This document shows, one piece after another, positions 23,739 to 40,856 of a stretch of 64,000 nucleotides of DNA (the stretch's first letter is position 1; every line of letters begins with the position of its first letter). A program made the translations under genes and the position numbers. The stretch lies in assembly GCA_905250025.1 (NCBI GenBank), contig CAJNOJ010000085.1:248001-312000 (forward strand), read 5' to 3'. The DNA comes from Adineta ricciae (Eukaryota > Rotifera > Eurotatoria > Adinetida > Adinetidae). The notes under the pieces were generated by a model. It was given only the letters and a program-made list of their open reading frames with translations. It had not been told where the DNA came from and ran no database searches.

Positions 23739-24351
23739 TTATCTGATAGGTAATGATTGCGCAGCGGATCGGAAGTTATGACAATCTGGATCATAGCATT
23801 TCTGGTAATAAATATTGTTTACGGGATCGACAAGTAAATAAACTCGATTGATCCTATGATGCCGTTGGACGTTTTCGCAGTAGCGATATTTTCCTGTAAT
23901 TTCTATTTTGTATATTCCATTGCTATTGGGTGGGTGGATTTTCCGAATTCGACCACCATGCGCCATGACCATATCGCTGATGCATTGCTCGATATGTGCA
24001 TATCTTTCTGGCATATGCTGACCGATGTGGATATTTCCTGACTGTAATTCCATGTCGTCGTTAGAAAGACTGTTGTAAGCTGTCTTAGCCGCTGCTTGTT
24101 CGGCATTTCTTTTCGAAGTAAAATCATTATCTCCGCGATACCATTGTCCATTGATTTCAACATCCGCCTGAATGAGAAAAAATCTTTTCCAATAGATCGT
24201 CTCCTTCATATAGCAACTAACTTGACGAACTGACCTGGAAGCTAGTACCTGATGTTGGTTGAACAACTCGATAGTTAGGCATTGGAAGTTTGTTCTTTTG
24301 ACAATATTCTTGCAAACGATTCTTCCAAGATTTCTCGTTTTGAACAGACAT
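23739..24351 (-). CDS. dsRNA-binding domain fused to a PrimPol/UL52-type zinc finger
   Basis: Two exons (24235-24351, 23739-24167; 67-bp intron) encode 181 residues. Residues 7-74 form a dsRNA-binding domain: SWKNRLQEYCQKNKLPMPNY, then QWYRGDNDF and the C-terminal basic helix (SKRNAEQAAAKTAYNSL). Residues 127-178 match the zinc finger of eukaryotic PrimPol and related archaeo-eukaryotic primases: KYRYCENVQRHHRINRV, LLVDP, then YYQKCYDPDC and NFRS. The ligands Cys136, His143, Cys163 and Cys168 keep the 7-20-5 spacing I know for human PrimPol (C419, H426, C446, C451). No polymerase core is present. In PrimPol the finger contacts the incoming nucleotide or template; here it may recognise an RNA end. 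An upstream exon near 24462-24519 (MSTLPSSYDK) does not splice in frame to this start and is left out. Confidence 0.82.
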
Positions 24352-25114
24352 ACTGAAGTTTGTGAACTAGTTTTTTGACACAAAAAGTATTCGCACGACT
24401 TGAAAATATTGTACATCACATGACTGGGTATTTTTAACAAAAGGTAAATATTCGTTTTACCATAGCATCATTGAAATACTCAGGTTGTTTATCGTAGGAA
24501 GAAGGTAAAGTAGACATCACATATACAGTACTCGCTAATCAGATATATTCTTTCTTGTTAGTATTTTTACAATTGAACAAACATATTAAGAAGCAATACG
24601 ATATCAAGTGACATCTTTTTCACCAGTTTCTTTCTCGATCTAAACATCATCGTCATTAAAAAACATGATTGTGTGTTTGTTGTAATACTGGGAGACATTT
24701 CTTTCTGATTAAAGAACATGATTACTATATTTTTGTGCGATAGATTGTCGTAGACAGTGTATTTGCTGATTTCCTTTTACTTAGCGATTTGCCGTTACAG
24801 TTATTTTCGTCTATCTATCTCTCGCTCTCGATATTTTTCTCTTAACAATTTTCTATTTGATTATATGGAATGAAGTTTCGACTCAATCATATTCAATAGA
24901 CTGGAAAAGCGAACGTCGTCAGTGAAAACATAATTGACCAGTGTTAGAATTCAATCAGATGTTCTATTTCCTTTGTAGGCACATTTTGTTTTTATTTGAC
25001 ACAAGCCATTTAGACTATCAGTAACAGTGAACACGAAAAAGTTTGACTAATTATAACAAAATACACACACACATATGCACATGCTGTACAAAATTGATAC
25101 AGATTAGTAGCGAT
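24352..25114. other. Intergenic, one possible upstream exon
   Basis: At 24462-24519 on the minus strand an ATG opens MSTLPSSYDKQPEYFNDAM followed by a GT donor. It may be a 5' exon of the dsRBD gene, but splicing to the AG at 24352/24353 does not preserve the frame. The rest is AT-rich with a short CA-type repeat near 25062-25082. Confidence 0.35.
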
Positions 25115-28100
25115 TTATAATCGCGAATTATCATCTAAAAGAGATGGAAAACTAGAAAAAGTCAGCATGAAGTATTACACTTACCATCCTGAGGAGCGGC
25201 ACGCTTACGACCACGATTAACAGTTGAAGCACGAGGTTTAGGACCATGTCCACCGCCTGGTTCATCATTAAGAATACGACGATAGTTAATCAATGGTTGC
25301 CAGGCGTCACCATCGATTGTTGCATTGTGAACAAGCTTATCAACATGATCATAGCTAAAGATGATCAATTAGATAGCACAGAATCAATTTTAATCGAAAT
25401 ACTTACATGGCTTTTTTATCTGGTTTGAGAAGTTTGGAAGCAAATTCGGGTAAGACTTCAAGGAAGAGAATATTTGGGCCGGGTTGAGTTGGATCATCAG
25501 GTTTGAATAGTGGTGTTAACGCAAAACGAATACATTCACTAGAGACATGAATCAACATTGTATTTAAGGAGTACAGACAAACATTATCATGTTATACCGA
25601 TGAAGTGCAGCAAGTGCTTCGCGCTGTTTGGCCATGTCAAGACCGAATGAAAGGTTAAATCGACGCGCCAATTCCTATATTCACATAATACATATATGTA
25701 ATTCAGTTAAAATGAAAATCTTACTCGTAACGGTGATAAATCAATTGCTATTGTTTCGTCATTACCAGCAGCTTCTTGTGCAGCATCTCGAGCAGCAACA
25801 CAATCTTTAAAAACCTATAACAACAATAACATTCGTAGTGATTCTACACACGTATAACATTCACTTACTGCCATAAGACTGTAGGCCATGGTTTTGGCGG
25901 TGTGAATCTTAGAAATATCTCGAGCACGTGTGAACGTATTTTTGATAATGTCACCGAAATCATTGCTAAACTAGAGAGAAAAAAAGCCGAAAGATGAACT
26001 TCTTTTCTGCTGATACGAAAGAAAATTCTGTTTTACTTTAACATAGTATTTCAGAATATTTGTCGCGGCTTGGATTGGCAGAACGTTGTGAACGATCAAT
26101 TTACAATAAGCAGCCAGAAGATTACGTTTCTTATGAAGATTCTCAATTTTTGCTTGTTCATCTTGGTCTAAACAAAGAATTGATTGAATAAATAAACAAA
26201 TAGATAAATTTCTTTTTCTGCCCTTACTTTTCGGTTCATCAGCAAAGAAAACGTAAGTATTCAAGAATGTTAACAATGCTTGAATAAGATTTTCATTGAT
26301 TTCAATTACAAGAACTTGATAATCAGGATTTTTATCCACCAAATGCGGACTCATACTAATTAACAAATCACACAATGTCGAATAAGCGTATTGACAGATC
26401 TGAGTATTCGCATGTAGCATCAGTTTTTGGCAAAGAGTGCAAAGTTTGCGTGAACGTTTAACGAGTTTTTTCAAGAGATCTTTATCGAATTGAATATCCA
26501 GTTGATACAATCCCCAGAGCAGACTACGATTGGCAATACCAAAACATTTATCGACGATCTCAGGTGACATATCTTCATTGTCAATCGCTGCTTTGAATAG
26601 AAGATGAATCTTATCCCATAGATCAACATTATCCAAATCATGACACCTACAAATGAAAGGGATTCTGCGTTCGATTTCGTTGGAATAAGGTTCTTACTGA
26701 TGGAAAGCGTCCAGTTTTCTTAAATTGAGTAACAAGGGATATAAATCATCTTCATCTGCTTCGTCCTAAATAAAACAGTAGTTGATAACTGATAAAAACG
26801 TTATCTTCTTACCATTTCTTCGAAAATACCCATTGCTGCATTAAAGTTAGCTAAGATTTTATCAATAATATTTCCTCGATGAGCAATCGCACGATTTGAT
26901 AGAGTAAAGCTAACATCACAAACACATTCGAAACATTTGGACACGGCATCGAAGATCTAAACGATAAAAACCAATAAATAAGTGTTCGAACAAAGAATTT
27001 ATCTTCACAAACATCAGCTGTGGTATGACGTTGAACAATATCACTCAGTGCAGTTAGATAAGCATCCAAATCTCGTTCACGGCGAGTAGTTGTATACACT
27101 TCGTAATTGAAATGAAGCGGAATTTGAAGTAGATTCAGTAATTTATCCGCATCCGCTATATACTTGAAAGATAAATTCAGTGATTCGAAAGTAATTAACG
27201 GAAAAATCGATCTTACTTTGTTAAGCAGTGGTGGTAAAGTACCAATAAAATGATCGGTTAGAAGTCGTTTATCGTCTTCTTTTTGCTTTTGTTCTTTCAT
27301 TGTTAACTAAAATGGATTTTCTCAATTGTCTGACGATAAATTTTCCTAATTACTTTTCGATTTGGTTGTCCACGGCCAATTGGATATTCACCAGTAGCTG
27401 CTTCTCGAACACAACAAACCATTATTTCAATGAGACAATTCTCATGTTGGTCATCGAGTGCTAAACATCATTCGGTTAAATCTCCATAGATTATTTTTTG
27501 CATGAGAAAACTTACGATCTTCTTCTTGATCTGGTGCTTCAAGTAGAATATCAGTCATGCATTCCCAATCTTTCATCATGGGATGCTGATCCCACATGGA
27601 ATCGACTAGATAAGTTGCATGTTCGTGAAGCTAAACAGATGAAAGTGTATCAACGTAAAAGGAAGATGTTTGAAAACTTACTTCACTCTCGATAAAGAAT
27701 TGAACGAGTAGATGCATAAAAGCAGTATTTTGACTGCGTTTCTTTGAAGAATTCAATGGTTGTTCCGCTTTATGGAATAGTTTTTGGTTAAGAAATTCGC
27801 CAGCTGCTTGTGCGACTTGTCGATGAGAATGATAGACAAGTTCATAGATATTTTCACAATCTTTATCTTCAAGTATACGTTCATTGAATCTATGGTAGGA
27901 AATTAACACAAATATATATTCATTTCACGTGCAAATCTTACTTCAATATAGCTGTTAAAAGTTTGATCGCTTGAACAGCAACTTCGTATTCACAATCAAC
28001 TGTCATTTGCACAACACGATCCTAAAAGTTAGTGTTAACATAAATGCTGTTATTTAAGAAAATATCTACTTTAAATCGATTGGTAAACAATTCAAGTTTA

Positions 28101-29541
28101 CCGACAAGATCATTCGTTTGAAATAATGGAATCAAGGCAAGTAAACAGCGTAGACGACAATCGCCGACCTAAAAGAAAATTGATTAGTATCGAAAATAAC
28201 GTGTATGCTGAACAATCGACTTACTTTATCGTATAAAGTCCAACCAATATATTTGAGGTAGATATCGTCGAGAAAAACCATCGGATAGCTTTTCATCCAC
28301 TCACCGAGCTCGCTCATACACAAGCATCGAATATCCGGCACGATATCACTATAAAGTTATCGAGAGTCATGATGAGATTTCAACTGATGATGGAATTCTT
28401 ACCGATAACGGTGAATAAATACACCTTTGAAGATAAAATTCATAAAACTTTTGATTTCATTTTCGTTTCCTTCAAGCTAAAAAAAATCTCCGAATGAAAG
28501 TGAAACGAAGAATCGTTTGATATCAAATCTAACCTCTTTTCGTTTGGCTGTTAATGTATCGAGTCGATCAGCTGCTCGTCGTGCACTGGATTTTTGTCGT
28601 TCAGCTTCGTATTGTCGTTGACATTGATCTTTTTGTATACTGATTGTCAAGGCAATATCCACAAGTGCAGTCATGACTTTTAGAACTATACGAAGCTTAA
28701 CGTGATCATAATTTTAAATAAGAACTGAATGTTCTTACCAGCTAGTGTACCCGTATGACGAAAAGCACGAACCGGCGAATCTGACAGCGCCGTCAATAAC
28801 GTGACAAGGTTGTCAATCATATATTGATCATAAATAATTGAGTATGATGCTTGTTTAATTAATAAGACAACAAATTCACTGAATGAAGTACGAAATTTCT
28901 TATATTGTAGACCGGCCATGATGATGGGATATTCAGATGTATCCTAAAAGTGAATATGAAGCAAATTTCATAGATCAAATTCGTTGTTTTACTTCATCGA
29001 AATGTTCAGTCATTGCTCTTAGCATATCGACGTGTTCCATTTTCAAATACATTGTTTGAGTTAGTTTTCCTTTACAACCACTTGAATCCAAAAAGAATTG
29101 CATTAATTCAATCAATGCTTCGTCACGGTTGGCTTGATACGAATCAATCCATTGATCAACTAACACTTGAATATTGGTCTTTCCAGCTAACAGATGATGA
29201 AAATATCCTTTTTCTTCAGTGTGTTGACCGCCGTATGTGGTATTATTCGCCGTGGTTATCGACACGGAACTTGTTTCCATGGAATCATCATCGGCTTGGT
29301 TGATAGATGCGCTGGTTTTACGTCCGCCACGCGATGAGCGTCCACGTCCGCGTCCGGGTGTTGTCGATGGTCGTCCTCGTGATGCTGCTTTGGGCTGAAA
29401 TTCTTCCCCTTCATCATCATCATCGTCGTCGTCGTCGACTTCATTCGGCATTGTCGACATGACGGAAGCCGGTGGTTCAACGAAATCATCACCAAGTGAT
29501 CGTTGGACATGATGTCTCATGGAGCGTGTGCTTCCGTTCAT
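25115..29541 (-). CDS. STAG: Cohesin subunit SA / STAG (SCC3, stromalin)
   Basis: About seventeen exons begin at 29541 ([20 protein letters not shown]). The N-terminus is acidic (run of Asp near residue 40) and then Arg-Gly rich ([20 protein letters not shown]). The STAG region follows: [86 protein letters not shown], then [23 protein letters not shown] and [19 protein letters not shown]. These align along vertebrate STAG1/2 in order. The protein clamps DNA and binds RAD21 in the cohesin ring for sister-chromatid cohesion and loop formation. The last exon, 25115 to about 25133, gives a short acidic end (DDDNSRL). The gene is complete; only the first ATG and exact exon ends need transcript support. 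Confidence 0.92.
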
Positions 29542-29936
29542 GATTATTCAATCTGAAATAAAAACGAATAGGGCAGGAGAGTTTATTTTTTCTTGATCGT
29601 TTTTGTCTTCTATACGAAACATACGTAAAACATTGGTGAAAAATAAAAATGACATAGAATCTCTAAAAAATACCGAGACGATAAGCAGGGAAGAAATCCA
29701 AAGAGAAGAACATATCACACGAAAGGAAAAAAAGTGGGGACATAGAAAAAAAAAACGATTTTCGACTAACAAAAGGGAAAAGAAACGTGATATTTTTTTG
29801 CATAGAGATCTAAGTAAATTGTATGGAAATTGATAGAATATATTTGATCTAATAAAAACTAGAAAAAAAAACCCGATTTGTATGAATCGTTTGCTTTGCT
29901 TGCATATAACTTGATTGAAGGCATGCGGATATTTAC
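29542..29936. other. Short spacer between STAG start and stonin end
   Basis: About 395 bp, A-rich on the + strand. It must hold the promoter of the STAG gene and the 3' end of the stonin gene on the same strand. No coding exon is visible. Confidence 0.4.
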
Positions 29937-36980: not shown

Positions 36981-39900
36981 CTACGAAAATAGAAGATAAT
37001 ATTCTTTGTCACGTTTAACAACGTGGATATTTACTCGTAATTTTTGTAGCTTTTGTTCTAGTAATTCAATTCGTAGATCTTTTCGTTCGTTGCCCTCTTG
37101 TAATTCAGCAATTTTTTGTCGATAGGATTCGTCTACAGATCGCTGAAGAACAAAAAAAAGCAATGAATAAACACTTTGAGCATTCGTTTCTTTCTCCTAC
37201 CAGTTTATCGTTGATCAATAATTCGATATCACCGATTAAATCATTCGAACCAGGACGTATGCATTGAATTAGAGAAAAATTCGATGAAGAAGATGATGTA
37301 AGCGGATTGATTAACGGTTGATTTGGACTATCACAGTTGGGATTCGGTAGGCTAGATGGTGAATTTTTCAATTTCGATCTAAATGGACGCATAACTTCAA
37401 CGTTCAACCATCGCTTTGAGTCTTACTTCAACGAAGTTCTTCGATTCGAAAGACAGATCGGTGTTTTATCCGTTTCATTTTCGGTTGTTATTTCTTTCTC
37501 ATTGGATTCTTCAATGGATGGTAATGGAGCTTGGGCTGTTGTAATAGGATTCGTGAGACACGATGCAATCGATGTCAAGGTATTGAATGGGCTTTTAATC
37601 TGTTCAGCTGCTTCTTTCTTCGCTTTTTCCACCCCGAGTCGATTTTGAGCATATTCGTACAGTTTACGTTCAGCTTCGGGATAATCTCGACAACCTTCGA
37701 GAACATCTTCTTTTGAAAGGGAAAATAATTCAGAATAACCAACACTGCGAACATCGGCTGTCCGCCGATTAGCACCATCGATATTTAAAATTCCGATTTC
37801 ACCGAAAAAATCACCTGCGACCAAACGAGTGAGAACATCATTTTTGTCGCTAAGAAGATAATCGATTTTCAATTAATGTTCTTCATGTACAAAACTATAC
37901 TTACTTGACAACTTCGAGCACACCGTCGGCAATGATGAACATTTCACGCGCAACTTCCCCTTTCCGACAGATAACGTCGCCAGGTGTAAAGATATATGCA
38001 CGCATTTTCAGGACAAGATCATGAAGAAATTCGGGTTGACACTCATGAAAGATCGTCACCTGAAATGGTTAATAACAATTATTCCATGTTACTTCAATTC
38101 TGCTTTGCTGCCTCGTCAAAGCGATTTATTTACTTTCAAAGTATCCTGATGGAAAATTGATTATTTTCTAGCTATAACCTGTCATGAAGACTTTCATCAA
38201 TCGATCGAATAGTTCAATATAGATAAGCCATTCGCTTTACACGTTCACTCAATTCCCTGACATACCTTTTTCAAAGTACCCAAATTAACATGTAATGCCA
38301 ACTCAGTTTTCAGTTTATCTGGTAAAAGTTTTATTGAATGAACATCTCCAGCACCAGACATTCGACCACGTGACCAAGAATAATTATACCAACGTTGTAC
38401 CCGCCGTTGCATTTCTGGTGGCACATTATGTGTGCGCATGTATTGTTTTGCACTATCCTATACAAACAGTAATCGATGTCAGATTTTTCCGGAAATTGCA
38501 CATCTTCTCTCACCAGTAAACGTTCGAATTCCAATCGACTTGCATTTCGATTAGTAATCACATTACCGACTTGTCCTAGAATATCAAGAAGTAGCAGTAT
38601 GAGTTGCTTCTCATGTTTTCACTGAGAATTTTACCTATAATAATCGAATAGACAAATATTCCACTCATATAACCACAAATAGCGAAAACAGCCCTCAAAA
38701 ATAAAGGAACAAGACGGTGTGTAACTGACTTTTAACTTTATAAAAGACAATTCGGGGAAAAGATTTCTCTCCTCTAGCTTGAATTCTTGCTTACCCACGA
38801 TGATAGCTATGACGAAAACGGCGAACAAGTGAACGCTTATGAGGAAAGCGTAGCTAAAAGAATGCAAAGTACAAGTTCATATTAGAAGAACAGAGTTAAA
38901 AGACATTGACGTGGACACAACAAGCAATGATATTTACCGTCTGTTCGAAAAGTTTTTGAGCCATCTAACTTTGAAGAATAGAAAAGAAAAAGAAAACCGA
39001 AGAAACAAAAATAACGCAAGTCTTCACTATACTTCTCAACAGAAAACAAAAGGAATCGAAGAAACTCTTTCGAATATTAAAATCTACTCACTGCCAATTC
39101 GTTTCTGGTGGTGGTAAATCTCCAATAGTTGTCAATGTTAATGTTGACCAATAGAGACAGCGAAGATACATCCTTGCTATTTGAGAAAAATTTCCTACAG
39201 GCTTTGGGTAAGACCAAAATCCAACAAAACCCTCCGCTTTCGATACCATAAAATAGAAGGAAGCCAACCAATGTCCCAAGAGAAGAAGTATATGAAGTAG
39301 ATTCAGCACTCGATAGGTATTCGGATAGATAGTACGTGATTCTTGATAATAGTAGAGTTGAAATGTTCGATAGAGTTTGAAAAATCGCGGAAATCGAAGA
39401 ATCGGAATGCTGCCGAATTTGATTTGAAGTAAATCCAATGGTGTTAATGATAGAATATCGAAGAGAAAACGAGATGAACGTATGTAATTCATAGCAAGCT
39501 TCATGTGATTGTAAACAAGTAAGCCTAGAACATTCGTACACATAAATTTAGTTTCGAAATGTTATTTTTATCTTTGGAAATGATCATCACTTAATGACGT
39601 TAGTCATCTAAGTAACGGAAAAAAGACGAATCGACAACTTCCTGTTCTGTCGAGACGTTCTACGAAAAATACGATTAGATCGTCTCGTAAATTTATTTCG
39701 AATTGAATTACGGAATAAATCTTTTCATTTTCATTACCTTGCTCAAGATAACCGGTACGAAATTGAATGAAAATATCGACAAAGTACATGGAATCTGCTA
39801 TGTAGTCAAGAATTCGCCAGATATTCTCATAATCTGTTTGCAATGGTTCAAATGCTTGCCGGGCAATTGAAAACCATAAATTATACAAAACAAAAATATT

Positions 39901-40856
39901 CAATAGTATTAACCAATAGAATAAGAACGATTCGTCGGTTGATATAACAAAGTAATTACATGCTCGTAAGATCCGTCGTAGAAACGCAGAACGAGTTTTG
40001 ATCGGTTCATCTTTTTCACTGTTCAATCGAAGATTTTGTTTAACAGGATCTGGAAGAACAAAACGGCAATATAAGACATTCGTGAAGATCGACTTACCTA
40101 TCGCCCCCATACTTCGATAGCCATACCGATTAGAAAATCTTTGTAGGAAAGAATCTTCTCGTGTCAATCCTTTGTTTGATCTGCCGCCAGGACTTGATTG
40201 TCGCTTTAGACTCTAGAAAAGACGGTTGTAATTGAAAGGTACAAAACTTTCAGAAAGAGAGAAAAAAAACTAAAGATTTCCAAAGATAATCACCATCAGT
40301 TCGATAAAATCTTGTTTTTCTATGAATCTAACTCTGGATGTCCATAACTTGATTTGAAGAAAGTTTTTGCCTCTTATTCTCTCTAGATTTGAAGTATAAG
40401 TAAATAATAGAAAACAAATGTTGATAATTTATTTCGGAATTCTCTATCATACTCAATTAGATGAAGAGCAACGAGCGTGATGTGAAGATGATGATGAAGA
40501 AGAGGAAACAATAGACCTCTTTGCCTTTTTTTTTCTCTTTCGAATTCATTTCTATGGGTTTGATTAACGACAGAAAACGCGTTCAGTTACTGACGAACGA
40601 AATCATTCTAGAGAATGCTCATGCTTTAGTTCGGCAATGAAATCTTATTAAAATAATGACTTACATCATCATTTGACGGCGAAGATGGCAATTGATCAGG
40701 ATTAATCGATGGCCCTCGCAGGTAATCACTTGTCGTTAACGTTTCACTTGCGTTCGACTGACGATGTTGAGCTAAATGTTGAGGATAGGGTGCTGGACAC
40801 GCACCGTCTTTCTTAAGTAAGTCATTTAGAACAGGTGTTATGGCTGCTAGCGGCAT
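36981..40856 (-). CDS. Cyclic nucleotide-gated cation channel, CNGA-like
   Basis: About thirteen exons. The first safe ATG is at 40856 (MPLAAITPVLNDLLKK), within an exon that could extend upstream. S1 to S3 lie in 39740-40170 (FYWLILLNIFVLYNLWFSIA, IQFRTGYLEQG). S4 is ILRFPRFFKLYRTF and the pore is YWSTLTLTTIGDLPPP, with Asp where CNGA channels usually have Glu. Two alternative S6 exons follow (38795-38853 and 38635-38693). The C-linker has SWSRGRMSGAGDVHS and LLPDKLKTELALHVNLGTLK. The cyclic-nucleotide-binding domain shows GDFFGEIGIL, the phosphate-binding NRRTADVRSVGYSELF, and a C-helix. A 48-bp intron (about 37384-37431) leads to a Ser-rich linker and a C-terminal coiled coil (LRIELLEQKLQKLRVNI), placed like the CLZ domain of CNGA subunits. 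It should conduct Na+ and Ca2+ when cGMP or cAMP binds. Confidence 0.9.
38635..38693 (-). other. Alternative S6 exon B of the CNG channel
   Basis: 59 bp, preceded by TTTGAG and followed by GTAAAA. Spliced to the pore exon (ending at 39092 with CA) it reads QAVFAICGYMSGIFVYSIIIG and joins GQVGNVITNRNAS. It has the same length and the same phases as exon A, 101 bp away. Confidence 0.75.
38795..38853 (-). other. Alternative S6 exon A of the CNG channel
   Basis: 59 bp, preceded by CTTTTAG and followed by GTAAGC. Spliced to the pore exon it reads HYAFLISVHLFAVFVIAIIVG and joins the same downstream exon. Placing A directly before B gives a TGA after nine codons, so only one can be used at a time. 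Confidence 0.75.

Follow-up and report, generated by a model that had tools for sequence, protein, structure and literature searches.

In animals, 5′-triphosphorylated (5′-ppp) RNA is recognized by RIG-I-like and IFIT proteins, and the RIG-I-like receptors possess a zinc-containing domain that reads the RNA end. Double-stranded RNA-binding domains (dsRBDs) prefer A-form dsRNA, and small accessory proteins built from them are common in RNA silencing. The motifs typical of the domain are GPxH, in the loop that links strands 1 and 2, and a KKxAK-like basic start of helix 2.

The zinc finger of human PrimPol is held by Cys419, His426, Cys446, and Cys451 (PMC10415149). According to the same paper, the mutations R417A and R424A dramatically reduced the binding of a 5′-triphosphate duplex, to a KD above 10 uM, and the wild-type enzyme bound the same duplex without the triphosphate inefficiently; these measurements were made with full-length PrimPol on a DNA duplex and with neither the isolated finger nor RNA, and in the accompanying model Arg424 cannot touch the triphosphate. 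Met432 has also been modelled as stabilizing the initiating base pair. The reports on single-stranded DNA are in conflict, since PMC4027207 describes the human C-terminal finger domain as binding ssDNA and nothing else, whereas PMC10415149 describes the C-terminal part (residues 363-560) as devoid of ssDNA binding. With regard to silencing, PMC7943196 gives an average of 38.9 copies of RNA-dependent RNA polymerase (RdRP) per bdelloid vs 2.5 in monogononts and places a highly significant copy-number shift of the RNAi families on the bdelloid stem.

In this study we analyzed a stretch of 64,000 nucleotides (the window; C85:248001-312000) of the 130-Mb assembly of the bdelloid Adineta ricciae, and found on its minus strand a two-exon gene whose product of 181 amino acids joins one dsRBD to a PrimPol-type finger domain and carries no polymerase core. 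The features of the locus are as follows.

24235..24351, minus strand: exon 1, residues 1-39, helix 1 and strand 1 of the dsRBD (splice reconstruction, identical to deposited protein P0001)
24168..24234, minus strand: intron of 67 bp, GT-AG, phase 0, after ..SFQ (splice reconstruction; position and phase common to the paralogue on contig C232 and to the stand-alone dsRBD genes L011 and L012)
23739..24167, minus strand: exon 2, residues 40-181 and stop, with the remaining dsRBD, the linker, and the zinc-finger domain
24066..24327, minus strand: predicted dsRNA-binding domain, residues 9-73 (Pfam dsrm; the span takes in the intron)
23742..24008, minus strand: C-terminal PrimPol/UL52-type domain, residues 93-181, with helix, strands, and zinc finger (structure prediction)
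23745..23894, minus strand: Pfam Herpes_UL52 match, residues 131-180, ligands C136, H143, C163, and C168
23883..23885, minus strand: codon of Arg134, the counterpart of human PrimPol Arg417 (finger-residue counts and alignment)
about 24461..24517, minus strand: upstream mini-exon of deposited model P0002 (placed by eye from the P0002 sequence)

Many alternative GT-AG pairs at this locus likewise leave open frames, and the 67-bp intron was chosen because it restores the dsRBD and because the joined product matches P0001, with 100% identity over 100% of the length. The coordinates and splice put forward in a preliminary description of the window were exact. The protein is an unnamed protein product in NCBI and bears the UniRef label DNA-directed primase/polymerase protein. 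An alternative A. ricciae model deposited for the same locus, P0002 (221 amino acids), starts at the upstream mini-exon and reads exon 1 out of frame, and the N-terminal half of the dsRBD is missing from it. Comparison with the homologous sequences supports the 181-residue model over P0002, and the mini-exon is probably not part of the coding sequence of the window gene. The upstream neighbor on the same strand (window positions 25150-29550, extent by eye) is a cohesin subunit SA/STAG-like gene with a Pfam HEAT_SCC3-SA match at 26854-27306 (E 4.4e-21). Farther away, at 37426-40212 on the minus strand, a cyclic-nucleotide-binding domain (37426-37872, E 1e-7) is accompanied by frames that look channel-like by eye, and this gene perhaps encodes a cyclic-nucleotide-gated or HCN-type channel.

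An HMM search placed both domains above their curated Pfam cut-offs, in agreement with the architecture first proposed: dsrm at residues 9-73 (E 1.3e-14, 54.9 bits vs a cut-off of 23) and the Herpes_UL52 zinc finger at residues 131-180 (E 1.7e-9, 37.9 bits vs a cut-off of 21), the remaining four Pfam rows all being under theirs. The ligands C136, H143, C163, and C168 have the spacings 7, 20, and 5, which are those of human Cys419, His426, Cys446, and Cys451, as had been noticed from the letters; when residues are counted from these equally spaced ligands, Arg134 and Arg141 correspond to human Arg417 and Arg424. The protein ends 13 residues past the last ligand. The claim that the primase core is missing was also borne out, as no archaeo-eukaryotic primase (AEP) core was matched by Pfam in the 181 residues. 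Pfam leaves this core unmatched at E 0.01 in the bdelloid PrimPol proteins P0123, P0128, and P0129 as well; the window protein, with its 181 residues, is too short to hold it. Neither a DExD/H helicase nor a RIG-I C-terminal domain gave a Pfam match in the protein, and no helicase, CARD, or nuclease stood above the Pfam cut-off. In the predicted structure residues 93-181 have high confidence, and confidence is low at 78-87, between this part and the dsRBD, so that the linker between the two domains is probably flexible. For the homologue P0008, viral primases are among the best 8 BFVD rows obtained with a model of the finger alone.

Pfam finds only one dsRBD stretch in the protein. It has the alpha-beta-beta-beta-alpha fold and is predicted to be a dsRNA-binding unit, and its top PDB sequence matches are plant DRB4, HYL1, DRB2, and DRB3. 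The GPxH loop is lost in the window copy. In a set of 20 proteins chosen because they combine an LQE-type start with a finger, 11 have GPxH, all of the long type described below, and every long-type protein in that set keeps it (11/11). Helix 2 starts with KRNAE in the window copy and with KKxAE in 18 of the 20 (P0004 lies outside the searched span), the last position being Glu.

The preliminary description treated the locus as a single odd gene. This view had to be abandoned, as several bdelloids have related proteins in which the two domains occur together, and the gene belongs to a bdelloid family with two forms. A profile search returned 379 proteins at E <= 0.01, and among the best 120 of them, which were listed, at least 23 carry both domains in the precomputed Pfam annotation. 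Thirteen of these 23 have an organism name and all are bdelloid (Adineta or Rotaria), namely A. ricciae, A. steineri, A. vaga, Rotaria sordida, and Rotaria spp. Silwood1 and Silwood2; the other ten are without a name. In R. magnacalcarata, P0019 combines a dsRBD with the finger pattern, the finger being unflagged by Pfam, and in Didymodactylos carnosus P0068 consists of finger and tail and the partial P0087 is a dsRBD running into the finger domain. The named non-bdelloids among the listed matches are plant or cnidarian proteins with a dsRBD and no flagged finger, and among the stretches with the pattern that were picked up in viral contigs (51) and in genome contigs (79) no relative could be confirmed. 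Within reach of these searches, the sequences indicate that the fusion family is conserved and confined to bdelloids. That the architecture was undescribed holds within the open-access full-text library covered, in which no paper brings PrimPol together with dsRNA binding and nothing on topic joins bdelloids to dsRNA binding, judging by title and the beginning of the abstract; the protein itself is already deposited, with its primase/polymerase label in UniRef.

The short form of the family, to which the window gene belongs, has about 180-207 residues, and the long form has about 270 and ends in a conserved Cys-rich tail. This tail, the last about 60 residues of P0009, P0010, P0011, P0016, and others, ends in CHDS-type residues in most cases and gave no Pfam match at E 0.01 in P0016, the one long form scanned. 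The A. ricciae assembly holds one short gene, that of the window, and one long-type gene without the tail (C232, P0023). Another short-form A. ricciae protein, P0003, is 80% identical and was not found in this assembly; a different strain or haplotype may be its source. In a tree of the fingers the 13 short-form rows group together with support (95/96) and include A. ricciae and A. steineri and one Rotaria row, and because this group spans both genera, the split between short and long forms is probably older than the Adineta–Rotaria division. P0078 from A. vaga (182 amino acids) keeps the dsRBD and linker, but toward the C terminus it looks like the finger translated in a different frame, and it is either a wrong gene model or a decayed gene.

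The conservation of single residues was counted in two ways. After the profile search 122 proteins were examined, P0001 and P0002 being two models of one gene, and the exact 7-20-5 finger pattern occurs in 81 of them; the 41 without it, P0014, P0078, and P0087 among them, are either fragments or relatives that have the dsRBD only. Since the ligands are preset by this search pattern, their presence in the 81 fingers is uninformative. At the non-ligand positions, Tyr133 and Gln161 are each invariant (81/81), the Arg134 place holds Arg in 80 of 81 (His in P0027), and the equivalent of Arg424 is Arg in 57, Lys in 11, and another residue in 13. The place of human Met432 is Tyr in 75 of the 81. In alignment A3 (46 rows), in which the pattern was not used as a filter, each ligand is present in 44 rows and missing from P0078, whose end reads off frame, and from the partial P0087; Arg134 is kept in 43 rows and the basic GRIRK stretch is kept too (R112 in 40, R114 in 43, and K115 in 43). 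The cellular PrimPol fingers of bdelloids P0123, P0125, and P0129 all have Lys at the Arg417 place (3/3) and the A. ricciae PrimPol on contig C126 has Arg, and so Arg at this place is not universal in working relatives.

Judged by its exons and introns, the gene looks like a fusion of pieces already present in the host: the phase-0 intron after Phe-Gln (Phe-Lys in C232) is common to the window gene, its C232 paralogue, and two very similar stand-alone dsRBD genes of about 115 amino acids, L011 and L012 (contigs C245 and C264). The dsRBD of L011 is 39-50% identical to four dsRBDs of the family, and the two genes are the likely kin of the family dsRBD. The A. ricciae PrimPol-like gene (L014, C126:21467-23386) has an intron within its finger, and two pieces of its core are separated by an in-frame stop. 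Three family fingers score 61-67 bits against the finger piece of this gene and 40-49 bits against those of three mobile-element-like primases on C473, C514, and C298, which makes a mobile-element origin of the finger less likely. These three loci (L004, L008, and L009, respectively) are primase-like open frames with a PrimPol-type finger and are 52-60% alike in the finger, which Pfam flags in the L004 frame and not in the L008 frame. Another frame of L004 is helicase-like by eye and has no Pfam match at E 0.01; possibly the three constitute a replicative mobile-element family. In the finger tree these primases lie on a long branch (2.65), as does the PrimPol group (1.87). The fusion rows require 2 changes and fall on one side in only 10% of 200 bootstrap trees, and cellular PrimPol sits at an unresolved fork among them, so that a single origin is neither backed nor refuted. 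The C85 and C232 paralogues differ with a dN of 0.47 and a dS of 1.48 (NG86, 142 codons), which is compatible with purifying selection, though dS is near saturation.

As the best explanation, though a tentative one, we suggest that the protein is a non-enzymatic reader of 5′-ppp dsRNA ends that probably serves RdRP-driven silencing; we infer both the ligand and the pathway. The dsRBD would grip the flank of an RNA duplex, and the finger would capture its 5′-ppp end through Arg134, much as a primase finger holds the first nucleotide of the new strand by its 5′-triphosphate. Such ends are to be expected on duplexes begun de novo by RdRPs, and the most likely job would be that of an adaptor that marks RdRP-made dsRNA or passes it to Dicer or Argonaute in the expanded silencing of bdelloids, with the long form perhaps bringing in a partner by its Cys-rich tail. 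The 5′-triphosphate reading is proposed because the Arg417 counterpart is kept in nearly all fingers. Secondary small RNAs of nematodes are described as bearing 5′-triphosphates, which for bdelloids is an assumption. The A. ricciae genome contains 95 RdRP-matching stretches on 28 contigs, which are exon-level pieces and not genes, and it is from co-occurrence that we infer a link between the family and the RdRPs. The putative sensing of RNA ends or 5′-triphosphates, raised earlier among several options, has gained a specific basis in the conserved arginine and the RdRP richness, and is opposed by the ssDNA-only report of PMC4027207. Other observations also count against an end reader: the Arg424 place holds neither Arg nor Lys in 13 fingers, three bdelloid cellular PrimPols have Lys at the Arg417 place, the Met432 place is mostly Tyr, and the window copy has lost GPxH. 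A more specific form of the proposal, which we hold to be doubtful, is that the strand-initiation-site finger of a primase was moved onto a dsRBD in bdelloids to give a dedicated reader of the 5′-triphosphate start of RdRP-made duplexes, marking self-made silencing duplexes for amplification or loading.

It could also be that the protein is a dsRBD cofactor of Dicer or Argonaute, similar to R2D2, Loquacious, or TARBP, in which the finger is a zinc-stabilized module for protein binding or dimerization and reads no RNA end. The dsRBD does resemble the dsRBDs of various proteins, silencing cofactors included, such small accessory proteins are common, and in the long form a Cys-rich tail is added. 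However, the non-ligand Arg134 is nearly as conserved in A3 as the ligands themselves and GRIRK is conserved too, which would not be expected of pure scaffolding, and we consider this explanation unlikely. If the finger does bind 5′-ppp ends, the target might instead be viral, the protein acting as a cytoplasmic sensor or sequestering factor for 5′-ppp dsRNA of RNA viruses rather than for the products of the cell's own RdRPs. The molecular logic of this is identical to that of our preferred reading, and rotifer birnaviruses have been reported; however, helicase, CARD, and nuclease are all unmatched above the cut-off in the protein, and RIG-I C-terminal domains are found elsewhere in the genome (C107:57845-58210, E 8.7e-12; C136:151175-151525, E 2.9e-4), so an antiviral role appears improbable. 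These two matches also mean that 5′-ppp reading may already be covered in A. ricciae.

Bdelloids repair massive DNA breaks, and a nuclear partner or competitor of the organism's own PrimPol, helped by its dsRBD and acting at ssDNA, RNA-DNA hybrids, R-loops, or sites of repriming, would fit that capacity. The preference of dsRBDs for A-form dsRNA and the lack of any matched catalytic core speak against such a partner, which we regard as quite unlikely even though the family finger is nearer to the A. ricciae PrimPol than to the mobile-element-like primases in the bit scores given above. Tyr at the Met432 place is common to bdelloid PrimPol (three sequences and C126) and is therefore neutral here. 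In favor of the partner, mixed halves of human PrimPol are reported to regain primase activity in part (PMC10415149), and ssDNA binding is reported for the human finger domain (PMC4027207). A gene-model artefact, in which two adjacent genes have been wrongly spliced together, would be in keeping with the different 5′ end of P0002, and the splice in the window is known here from sequence alone; but the C232 paralogue has the identical order and intron position, deposited fusion models exist in A. steineri, A. vaga, and Rotaria, and the environmental proteins P0020, P0021, P0022, P0025, P0026, and P0027 span from the start of the dsRBD through the finger (P0021 has an odd tail, as if an intron had been left in the call), which makes an artefact hardly credible.

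If the preferred reading, that of a 5′-ppp end reader, is true, it explains by what means bdelloids could distinguish the dsRNA made by RdRPs from any other, and a module of replication initiation has been put to new use in sensing RNA. The PrimPol/UL52 finger would then seem to be a portable 5′-triphosphate reader, and the family would represent an independently evolved animal route to 5′-ppp RNA recognition, in asexual animals whose RdRP repertoire is exceptional. Whatever the function, the gene family is conserved and was recovered here from bdelloids only, and it is labelled primase/polymerase in UniRef yet has no primase core.

Compared with the known systems, the window protein is neither a primase nor PrimPol. 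Like the finger of eukaryotic PrimPol, its finger has C-H-C-C ligands at 7-20-5 with Arg at C-2 (Arg417), and 57 of the 81 family fingers share Arg at H-2 (Arg424); among the fingers compared within the genome, that of the A. ricciae PrimPol is the nearest. Unlike PrimPol, the family has no AEP polymerase core, is joined to a dsRBD, and has Tyr at the Met432 place in 75 of 81. It also differs from the primases of herpesvirus UL52 type and of giant viruses, since the window product is an animal protein of 181 residues without their primase or helicase parts. The rotifer stand-alone dsRBD genes L011 and L012 have the same intron position and phase but no zinc finger. With the silencing cofactors HYL1, DRB4, TARBP2, R2D2, and Loquacious the family shares the fold and sequence of the dsRBD, the best matches being DRB4 and HYL1, whereas these proteins have two or three dsRBDs and the family has one together with a primase finger. 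Although the window protein has no Pfam match to a helicase, a CARD, or the RIG-I C-terminal domain, it may by analogy resemble the RIG-I-like receptors in its proposed ligand, 5′-ppp blunt dsRNA, and in the use of a zinc-containing domain that would read the end.
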